From Mesorhizobium loti R88b (GTDB lineage Bacteria; Pseudomonadota; Alphaproteobacteria; Rhizobiales; Rhizobiaceae): 64,000 nt of DNA. The translations under genes were made by a program, and so were the position numbers. Each line of letters opens with the position of its first letter. Position 1 is the first letter of the stretch. The stretch spans positions 4,837,001 to 4,901,000 of the forward strand of contig NZ_CP033367.1 in NCBI RefSeq assembly GCF_013170845.1, written 5' to 3'. The notes beneath the pieces are model-generated. The model had not been told where the DNA came from. It saw only the letters and a list, made by a program, of their open reading frames with translations, and ran no database searches. Shown here piece by piece: positions 16,663-19,640 of the stretch.

Positions 16663-17418
16663 TCACGCGGCTTCGCCGATCACGCCGGCATAGCCATTGG
16701 CTTCGAGGTCGAGCGCCAGCGACTTGTCGCCGGACTTGATGACCTGGCCCTTGTAGAGCACGTGCACTGTGTCGGGCACGATGTGTTCGAGCAGGCGCTG
16801 GTAGTGGGTGATGACCAGGAAGGCCCGGTCCGGCGCACGCAGCGCGTTGACGCCGTCGGAAACGATCTTCAGCGCATCGATGTCGAGGCCGGAATCGGTC
16901 TCGTCGAGCACGCATAGCTTCGGCTCCAGAAGTTTCATCTGCAGGATCTCGGCGCGCTTCTTCTCGCCACCGGAGAAGCCGACATTGAGCGGCCGCTTCA
17001 GCATCGCCATGTCCATGCTGAGCGAAGCGGCGGCTTCCTTCACGCGCTTCAGGAATTCCGGGATTTTCAGCGGCTCCTCGCCACGCGCCTTGCGCTGCTC
17101 GTTCATCGCCACTTTGAGGAATTCCATGGTGGCGACGCCCGGTATCTCCATCGGATACTGGAAGGCGAGGAAGATGCCCGACGTTGCGCGCTCGGCCGGG
17201 TCCATTTCGAGGATCGACTTGCCGTTGTAGAGGATGTCGCCCTCGGTGACCTCATAATCCTCGCGGCCGGCGAGGATATAGGAGAGCGTCGACTTGCCGG
17301 AGCCATTCGGGCCCATGATGGCGGCAACCTCGCCGGCTCTCACCGTCAGGTTCAGGCCGCGGATGATTTCGGTGCCATCATCGACGATGCGGGCGTGCAG
17401 GTTCTTGATCTCAAGCAT
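16663..17418 (-). CDS. sufC: Fe-S cluster assembly ATPase SufC
   Basis: ABC-type ATPase that drives conformational change in the SufBD scaffold. The 251-residue product begins MLEIKNLHARIVDDGTEIIRG, with Walker A GPNGSGKSTL, signature FSGGEKKRAEILQM and Walker B LCVLDETDSGLD. The ATG at 17418 is the family start; in-frame codons upstream to 17520 lie inside the small membrane gene and are not conserved. The start codon overlaps the end of the preceding small membrane-protein gene by eight bases (TTGAGATCAAG contains both). Confidence 0.97.
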   Translation of the reverse strand: MLEIKNLHARIVDDGTEIIRGLNLTVRAGEVAAIMGPNGSGKSTLSYILAGREDYEVTEGDILYNGKSILEMDPAERATSGIFLAFQYPMEIPGVATMEFLKVAMNEQRKARGEEPLKIPEFLKRVKEAAASLSMDMAMLKRPLNVGFSGGEKKRAEILQMKLLEPKLCVLDETDSGLDIDALKIVSDGVNALRAPDRAFLVITHYQRLLEHIVPDTVHVLYKGQVIKSGDKSLALDLEANGYAGVIGEAA

Positions 17419-17704
17419 TGTTCTTTTCTCTGAAATAGTCGTCGTAAGTGATCGAATAGTCGGTGTGCCGGCGCTGCAGCGCCTTGAACCACCAGAAGGA
17501 CAGGCCGAAGCCGATGGCAAAGACGGCGATGCCGACGAACAGGTTGACGAAGGCTGCTAAAAGCATGCCGGCAAATGCCGCAACAACAGTCGCGCCGGCG
17601 AATTTTGCCATGGCGATGTTGCCCTCGCGGCGGACAGCCCACAGCCGCCGCCAGCGGACGGCAAACCAGATTTCTTCTCGCGGTAGCTGCGTTGCCATGG
17701 TCAC
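17411..17704 (-). CDS. Small membrane protein in the suf operon (orf2)
   Basis: A 97-residue protein with two adjacent membrane segments (ATVVAAFAGMLLAAFVNLFVGIAVFAIGFGLSFWWF), a basic N-terminus and a polar tail (HTDYSITYDDYFREKNNA). The GTG at 17704 overlaps the stop of orf46 (GTGA); an ATG two codons later (17698) is the alternative. Its stop lies inside the start of sufC. It may be a diverged paralogue of the other small membrane gene at 17831-18118; both have the same overlap geometry with a sufC-like start. Function unknown. Confidence 0.75.
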   Translation of the reverse strand: MTMATQLPREEIWFAVRWRRLWAVRREGNIAMAKFAGATVVAAFAGMLLAAFVNLFVGIAVFAIGFGLSFWWFKALQRRHTDYSITYDDYFREKNNA

Positions 17705-17841
17705 CAGCCTACTGAACCTTCCAGCGAGATGACGATACGCTCCTGCACGCCGAAAGACCTTACGGTGCTGTTCAACCAGCGATTTATCACAGCCCCGGCC
17801 GAAACGATCCGGGTGTGCCGGTTCTTGATCTCAAACCTCAT
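17701..17841 (-). CDS. 46-codon chimeric ORF: sufC-like head, sufB-like tail
   Basis: A 46-residue ORF beginning MRFEIKNRHTRIVSAG and ending [13 protein letters not shown]. The first residues copy the SufC N-terminus (MLEIKNLHARIV); about 28 of 32 DNA bases match. The last copy the SufB C-terminus ([13 protein letters not shown]; 10 of 13 residues). It overlaps the end of the upstream small membrane gene by 11 bases and the next gene's GTG by four, so the arrangement is coupled and probably translated. It is best read as the junction of a tandem duplication rather than a functional enzyme. Whether the peptide does anything is unknown. Confidence 0.6.
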   Translation of the reverse strand: MRFEIKNRHTRIVSAGAVINRWLNSTVRSFGVQERIVISLEGSVGW

Positions 17842-18118
17842 TTTCTACTTTCGCGTTCTTGCCGCTTTCGATGGTCGATCGTTGATGGGATCTCCCCAAA
17901 AGCGCTCCTGCCAGATGGCCAGTCACGAACATCCATCCGAAAAAGCCAATCGCACCTAGACCGGCTATCGAAGCACCAATGCTCGTCACCGAACTCAAGC
18001 CGAACACCGCGCCCACCAAAGCAATCACGGCACCCCCAACGGCCACCGTCAACAAGAGCAACAAGATGATGACGATGAGGCCATCTACTCGGTCGAGAAA
18101 ACTCTGGCGCCGTTCCAT
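17831..18118 (-). CDS. Small membrane protein in the suf operon (orf1)
   Basis: A 95-residue protein with two membrane segments (LIVIILLLLLTVAVGGAVIALVGAVFG and ASIAGLGAIGFFGWMF) and a hydrophilic C-terminal tail (RSTIESGKNAKVENEV). It starts four bases after the sufB stop. Its stop codon overlaps the start of orf46 in the same way that the second small membrane gene overlaps sufC. The segments AIGFFGWMF here and AIGFGLSFWWF in the other gene suggest remote paralogy. No function recognised. Confidence 0.75.
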   Translation of the reverse strand: MERRQSFLDRVDGLIVIILLLLLTVAVGGAVIALVGAVFGLSSVTSIGASIAGLGAIGFFGWMFVTGHLAGALLGRSHQRSTIESGKNAKVENEV

Positions 18119-18122
18119 CTAA

Positions 18123-19640
18123 TCAACCCACGCTGCCTTCGAGCGAGATGCCGATCAGCTTCTGCGCTTCGACGGCAAACTCCATCGGCAGTTGCTGGAT
18201 GACATCCTTGACGAAGCCGTTGACGATCAGCGCGATGGCTTGTTCCTCGGGAATGCCGCGCTGCATGACATAGAACTTCTGGTCCTCGGAAATCTTGGAC
18301 GTCGTCGCCTCGTGCTCGAACTGCGCCGTCGAGTTCTTGGCTTCCATGTAAGGCACTGTGTGCGCGCCGCACTGGTCGCCGATCAAAAGCGAGTCACAGT
18401 TGGTGAAGTTGCGGGCGTTGGTCGCCTTGCGGTGCGCCGAGACCTGACCGCGATAGGTGTTCTGCGAGAAGCCGGCGGCGATGCCCTTGGAGATGATACG
18501 GCTCGACGTGTTCTTGCCGAGATGGATCATCTTGGTGCCTGAGTCGACCTGCTGATAACCGTTCGACACGGCGATCGAGTAGAATTCGCCTTGGGAATCG
18601 TCGCCGCGTAGGATGCAGCTCGGGTACTTCCAGGTGATGGCCGAGCCGGTCTCAACCTGCGTCCACGAGATCTTCGAGCGGTCGCCACGGCAGTCGCCGC
18701 GCTTGGTGACGAAATTGTAGATGCCGCCCTTGCCCTCGGCGTCGCCGGGGTACCAGTTCTGCACGGTCGAGTATTTGATCTCAGCATCATCGAGCGCCAC
18801 AAGTTCGACCACGGCGGCATGGAGCTGGTTTTCGTCGCGTTGCGGCGCCGTGCAACCTTCGAGATAGGAGACGTAAGCCCCCTCCTCGGCGATGATCAAC
18901 GTGCGCTCGAACTGGCCGGTGTTCTTCTCGTTCATGCGGAAATAGGTCGACAGCTCCATCGGGCAGCGCACGCCCTTGGGCACGTAGACGAAGGAGCCGT
19001 CGGTAAACACGGCCGAATTCAGCGTCGCATAGTAATTGTCGGAGGTCGGCACCACGGAGCCGAGATACTTTTTCACCAGCTCCGGATGCTCGCGGATGGC
19101 TTCCGAGATCGAGCAGAAGATGACGCCGGCCTGCGCCAGCTCCTTCTTGAAGGTGGTGACGACGGAGACGGAATCGAACACGGCATCGACGGCGACGCGG
19201 CCCGACTTGTAGACGTTGTCGCTCGGCTCCTCGAGATCAGAGGCATCCGTCTTCTGCACGCCGGCCAGGATTTCCTGTTCCCGCAGCGGAATGCCGAGCT
19301 TCTCGTAGACCTTCAACAGTTCGGGATCGACATCGCTGAGCGATGACGGACCGGGCGTGCTCTTCGGCGCCGCGTAGAAGTAGATGTCCTGGAAATCGAT
19401 CTTGGGATAGTGGACGCGGGCCCAGGTCGGCTCTTCCAGCGTCAGCCAGCGCCGATAGGCTTCCAGACGCCATTCCAGCATCCAGGATGGTTCGTCCTTC
19501 TTGGCCGAAATGAAACGGATGATGTCTTCGCTCAGGCCCTTGGGGGCCTTGTCGACAGCGATCTCGGTCTCGAATCCGTACTTGTATTGGTCGACGTCGA
19601 TCTTTCGGACCCGATCGATCGTGTCCTGCACAGCAGGCAT
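18123..19640 (-). CDS. sufB: Fe-S cluster scaffold subunit SufB
   Basis: Main scaffold protein on which clusters are built by SufBC2D. At 505 residues it is full length: [27 protein letters not shown] at the start, a central block [41 protein letters not shown] with the conserved cysteine, and C-terminal [34 protein letters not shown]. The ATG at 19640 is the family start. It lies 185 bases after sufS2; that gap contains a short AGTTT-TC-AAACT inverted repeat at 19677-19688. Confidence 0.97.

Follow-up and report, generated by a model that had tools for sequence, protein, structure and literature searches.

The junction between sufB and sufC is a polymorphic gene slot, and in Mesorhizobium loti R88b that slot most likely holds two alleles joined head to tail, an incoming sufB-X1-sufC piece having been added to a resident sufB-X2-sufC. 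The window analyzed here is a stretch of 64,000 nucleotides, and the order on its minus strand is sufB, X1, ORF46, X2, sufC (Table 1). The stop codon of X1 lies within the start of ORF46, the stop codon of ORF46 lies over the GTG of X2, and the stop codon of X2 lies within the start of sufC. No promoter-like site was found between positions 17300 and 18300 (0.3 in shuffled sequences), and one terminator-like site was present there (1.0 in shuffled sequences). We note that X1 has a G+C content of 0.545, compared with 0.601 for sufB and 0.620 for sufC, and that the X1-type intervals of six other genomes have values of 0.52 to 0.54.

Table 1. Features of the sufB-sufC region, in positions of the window
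Feature	Coordinates	Strand	Description
sufB	18123..19640	-	505 aa, Fe-S assembly scaffold; Pfam SUFBD_core, E 9.2e-78
X1-type patch, last 36 coding bases of sufB	18126..18161	-	Mismatch pattern against sister G026
X1	17831..18118	-	95-aa membrane protein, upstream slot occupant
ORF46	17701..17841	-	46 codons; chimeric joint, SufC head and SufB tail in one frame
sufC 5'-end copy in ORF46	17759..17834	-	76-column match, score 26 against shuffle maximum of 16
sufB 3'-end copy in ORF46	17717..17753	-	78% to 18136-18172; DNA score 21 against shuffle maximum of 18
X2	17411..17704	-	97-aa membrane protein from GTG (ATG at 17698), downstream occupant
sufC	16663..17418	-	251 aa, Fe-S assembly ATPase; Pfam ABC_tran, E 8.8e-22

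ORF46 is a chimera of the two flanking genes, as had originally been predicted from the sequence. It starts with about 26 to 28 codons of SufC head and continues in the same frame with 13 codons that match the SufB tail; the alignments of both halves exceeded shuffled controls. The DNA match to sufC is ungapped over 76 columns and outscored the best of 1,000 codon-shuffled controls, and the protein match to SufC scored 68, against 41 for the best of 2,000 shuffles. The SufC copy is present but extends beyond the 11 residues first quoted for it, with 16 of 26 residues identical to SufC; the earlier count of 28 matching bases out of 32 in the sufC head and the coordinates given for it were right when inspected by eye. 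The SufB half, found also by a repeat search that paired 17717-17753 with 18136-18172, is the weaker one when taken alone. Its DNA score is above the shuffle maximum, and its 13-residue protein match scored 42 (p = 0.0015 in 2,000 shuffles, the best of which reached 49). Moreover, when sufB tails and sufC heads from 144 genomes were used as queries against 54 filled intervals, matches occurred only in the window (sufB tail, E 3e-9; sufC head, E 4e-8) and in one other genome, G103.

The joint also has the predicted order, sufC head and then sufB tail, between two units of sufB tail, small gene, and sufC head. The stop codons of X1 and X2 were said to sit at the same place inside TTGAGATCAAGAACC, and by eye they do, because a sufC head stands at both places: the stop is a TGA in the +2 frame of the sufC opening, ATGCTTGAG. 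Chance resemblance might be invoked for the sufB-tail half, which is short on its own, or the whole arrangement might be an assembly artifact, but each half exceeds chance and the two stand in the proper order. Moreover, the two copies have diverged from their neighbors by 22% (over 37 nt) and 36% (28 of 78 nt), a divergence that an assembly error would not create, and entries for the X1 protein come from two contigs. We give chance or artifact next to no credence.

We make no claim of selection on ORF46. Between 15 and 16 of 26 residues are kept, whereas random change would leave 10 to 12 (p 0.001 to 0.06, depending on the ancestor assumed), but the synonymous excess may stem from an unknown donor. 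Overlapping starts and stops had suggested that ORF46 is still translated, but a 26-codon copy altered at random would retain an open frame in about 65% of cases, and no candidate emerged when ORF46 was used as a protein query.

The slot in which ORF46 lies is variable across the genus. SufB was located in 144 of 146 genus genomes, and all 144 were examined for the content of the sufB-sufC interval. The gap between the sufB stop and the sufC start was 24 to 49 nt in 90 genomes and longer in the other 54, one measuring 82 nt and the rest 207 to 886 nt, and most of the longer gaps hold small genes. The sufC-sufD junction, used as a control, spanned -14 to +25 nt and was unfilled in all 141 of the 144 genomes in which it was measured. 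Occupants were sorted by eye into ten kinds, with kinship tested for X1 and X2 only: X1 with its shorter cousins, X2, X3 (GDKWFRPKRFGYGATP...WRWRWH), D46, E54, a GIY-YIG protein, and proteins of about 204, 139, 127, and 214 aa. Two kinds occur together in 9 of the 54 filled slots (G000, G004, G019, G034, G102, G103, G104, G121, and G138). The intervals of G012, G060, and G096 contained no ORF of 35 codons, and that of G060 later yielded an E54 cousin. At least 51 changes of slot state are required on a maximum-likelihood tree built from parts of sufB and sufC, a figure that serves as a guide, as sufB and sufC themselves recombine and many forks in the tree are weak.

Slot families are mostly confined to the slot. 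Among genus genomes with a match to a given family, the match lay inside the slot in 13 of 13 for X1, 11 of 14 for X2, 11 of 13 for X3, 4 of 4 for E54, and 12 of 12 for D46, or 51 of 56 for the five families together (by eye, from positions beside sufB). The five matches elsewhere are 36 to 39% identical, and the three for X2 contain stops. Homologous recombination in the conserved flanks is the probable route by which slot alleles spread, and it would account for the families keeping to one place. Outside the genus, 68 of 146 family genomes were read, the nearer ones rather than a random draw; the gap was 21 to 99 nt in 37 of them and 167 to 856 nt, with varied ORFs, in 31. By eye, the longer gaps outside the genus include cousins of X2, X3, and E54, those of the 54-aa E54 protein lying in the sufB-sufC intervals of other family genera at L198 (G200), L241 (G284), and L242 (G148).

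X1 and X2 are not paralogues, as judged by sequence and profile comparison. The original prediction held that one unit of sufB tail, membrane gene, and sufC head had been duplicated in tandem and that the two membrane genes had then diverged, and the joint does have the order that such an event leaves. The two proteins, however, resemble each other no more than random sequences do (p = 0.50), and the profile comparison that had been proposed as a check, with 15 and 18 sequences, gave an hhalign probability of 0.2%. Moreover, in other genomes, closer relatives of X1 and of X2 each occupy the slot by themselves. Relatives of X1, 66 to 71% identical, are the sole occupant in six (G001, G021, G032, G084, G113, and G145), and relatives of X2, 81 to 94% identical, are the sole occupant in six others (G010, G022, G026, G059, G108, and G115). 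Relatives with a single unit therefore exist, as was expected of a duplication, but different relatives carry different units, either X1 or X2. Tandem duplication with divergence is largely refuted, and we consider it highly improbable.

The flanking genes bear on how the two alleles were joined. By its flanks, the sister of the window is an X2 strain, G026 (support of 99, and of 100/99 in a second tree). Bases 1350 to 1425 of the window sufB are 99% identical to G026, whereas its last 15 nt match G026 at 67% and an X1 allele, that of G145, at 100%. The final 36 nt contain 8 mismatches with G026, compared with 56 in the remaining 1,479 nt (Fisher p 8e-5, with the border of the 36-nt patch chosen after looking). 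Judged by these matches, the sufB end is X1-type and the rest of sufB is like that of the X2-type sister. Against this assignment, the sufB end of G057, which is not an X1 genome, matches that of the window at 40 of 42 positions, equal to the X1 genomes G021 and G001 (40 of 42 each). Farther downstream, ORF46 begins with the pattern in which an X1 stop overlaps a sufC start (ATGAGGTTT in the window and ATGATGCTT in 4 of 6 X1 alleles), and its end runs into an X2 leader with the X2-type serine codon. Together, the X1-type sufB end, the start pattern, and the X2 leader indicate that a unit of X1 type precedes one of X2 type.

The remnants within ORF46, when compared with other genomes, fit this arrangement less well. 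Three positions consistently separate the sufB ends of the six X1 alleles from those of the six X2 alleles; the sufB remnant has the X2 base at two of them and the X1 base at the third. Overall, it is closest to G125, a genome with an empty slot (35 of 42; the best X2 allele reaches 34). The sufC remnant has 24 differences in 78 sites to G112 and 28 to the X1-type G113; X1 alleles are not the nearest, and the attempt to name its donor failed. No exact donor allele was found among the genomes searched, the window X1 being only 66 to 71% identical to the others.

We favor a model in which an X1 allele was fused to an X2 allele by a one-sided event. A donor strain with an X1 allele would have supplied a piece that ran from the sufB end through X1 to about codon 28 of sufC, and the recipient chromosome would have carried X2. 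The incoming sufB end would have recombined by homology, and illegitimate joining would have linked the other incoming end, inside sufC, to the sufB tail already present. The resulting order would be sufB with an X1-type end, X1, the sufC head/sufB tail joint (ORF46), X2, and sufC. The process was probably homology-facilitated illegitimate recombination: the X1-like patch at the sufB end is consistent with an anchor of homology at one end, and the other joint is nonhomologous, connecting the sufC head to the sufB tail in the window and to X2 in G103. Joints of this process carry short shared bases or a G+C-rich patch, and the joint in the window is too decayed to be placed exactly.

G103 carries a second scar, of the same kind as that of the window but fresher. 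About 406 to 605 nt after the sufB stop (L088), a 127-aa gene is followed by 63 nt of sufC head (97%) and then abruptly by the 3' part of X2, and a further 48-aa ORF precedes sufC. The 127-aa gene is the sole occupant in G051, and in G103 it meets the sufC head as the G051 gene meets sufC. The interval search found no sufB-tail copy in G103. Because this scar joins two other genes, duplication of a single unit does not give it, and a one-sided illegitimate joint does.

Two further routes would lead to the order seen in the window. An X2 unit might have been duplicated in tandem and its upstream copy then swapped for an X1 allele by ordinary homologous recombination, and slot alleles do exchange. 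Two events are required, however, no genome among the 144 has X2 on both sides of a joint, and G103 is left unexplained; we think this route unlikely. Alternatively, a circular or concatenated molecule of sufB tail, X1, and sufC head might have entered through a single crossover in the sufB end, in the manner of Campbell, which would also account for the duplicated sufB tail. Such integration needs an excised circle, of which there is no sign, and G103, whose joint lies beyond both homologous flanks, yielded no sufB-tail copy; we rate it as a very slim prospect.

The one-sided fusion of X1 and X2 alleles may be old. The sufC remnant differs from the window sufC at 28 of 78 sites, and synonymous divergence between the window and G026 is 0.175 for sufB, 0.198 for sufC, and 0.342 for X2. 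The remnant is more decayed than the sister divergence predicts, and thus the timing needs further exchange. The X2 tree rejects a grouping of the window with G026 (AU p 0.026) and conflicts with the flank tree. Perhaps the composite formed in another lineage and was then exchanged whole; it may be older than the split of the window and G026, an age that rests on short sequences.

Neither X1 nor X2 had a match above the cutoff in Pfam or any match in PADLOC, and when one representative of each of nine slot kinds was searched along with X1 and X2, the GIY-YIG domain alone exceeded the Pfam cutoff. PADLOC gave no match for 9 of 10 proteins, and a Cas8a identity for the 127-aa slot protein, from a weak match (E 0.0026), was not trusted. 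AlphaFold predicted a two-helix hairpin of modest confidence both for X1 (pLDDT of 72.5) and for X2 (pLDDT of 71.0). Protein searches returned 9 entries for X1, that of the window included, and 21 for X2, and the entries with a printed organism name were all Mesorhizobium. Values of dN/dS between the window and its relatives were 0.10 to 0.28 for X2 (six relatives) and 0.29 to 0.40 for X1 (four relatives), and X2 at least is under purifying selection.

Some occupants merit separate mention. The GIY-YIG slot proteins are found at L038 (G138) and L096 (G131), with a PF01541 E value of 1.3e-10 for the G138 protein, and ORF pieces with PRDKPEDDG-like repeats adjoin both. In G019 (L056), X2 is shortened to 46 aa by an in-frame deletion within it; this form lies 586 to 726 nt after the sufB stop and is preceded by a 204-aa protein, a relative of which is alone in the slot of G057. 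Two 60-aa relatives of X2 in other Mesorhizobium entries may resemble the shortened X2 of G019.

Slot occupants are probably cotranscribed small membrane proteins that spread via recombination in the flanks, and they may have a role with SUF. We speculate, with considerable doubt, that sufB-sufC is a selected cassette slot in which interchangeable small membrane proteins are made in step with SUF and act either as alternative SUF partners or as strain-specific membrane factors. Diversifying selection would then keep many versions in the family, fused alleles would give the cell two, and the frame of ORF46 would be preserved as a bridge for translation.

Neither variable slots nor one-sided illegitimate joining is a new idea, but a slot, once complete, seldom reveals how its contents entered. 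In the window, remnants of both flanking core genes survive in the joint next to the two alleles, and a fresher joint is seen in G103. Because the slot lies in a conserved housekeeping operon and its families are mostly confined to it, allele exchange via the flanking genes can be traced by ordinary comparison. Why small membrane proteins recur between SufB and SufC is the question raised. Among papers on sufB and sufC in Mesorhizobium and rhizobia, no title or abstract opening concerned a variable gene between them, and a literature search on insertions within operons found nothing.

Homology-facilitated illegitimate recombination has been proposed for type VI immunity-gene arrays of Vibrio cholerae (PMC5361080), and those arrays are like the window in that one end is anchored by homology, the other is joined without it, and the earlier occupant is retained in a downstream position. 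The arrays, however, are effector-immunity modules of evident use, whereas the window has single small membrane genes in a housekeeping operon and, unlike the arrays, retains pieces of both flanking genes in the joint. Gene-turnover hotspots exchanged through flanking core genes have been described in 80 species (PMC5635113), and they combine high turnover with an absence of recognized mobile elements, explained by conserved-flank recombination; turnover in the slot is likewise high, with 54 of 144 genomes filled and at least 51 changes. Hotspots hold many accessory genes, whereas the sufB-sufC slot holds one or two genes inside an operon, of families that are mostly confined to it. Finally, small variable segments, or microdiversity, including dimorphic short loci, have been attributed to homology-assisted illegitimate recombination (PMC2884548) and share with the slot short alternative contents at one site. 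Those loci are DNA segments that vary within a species, whereas the contents of the slot are coding genes, they vary across a genus and its family, and the joints reveal a fusion of two alleles. We conclude that the window is a variant of known systems, one distinguished by a one- or two-gene slot in a core operon, by mostly slot-bound families, and by a legible joint.
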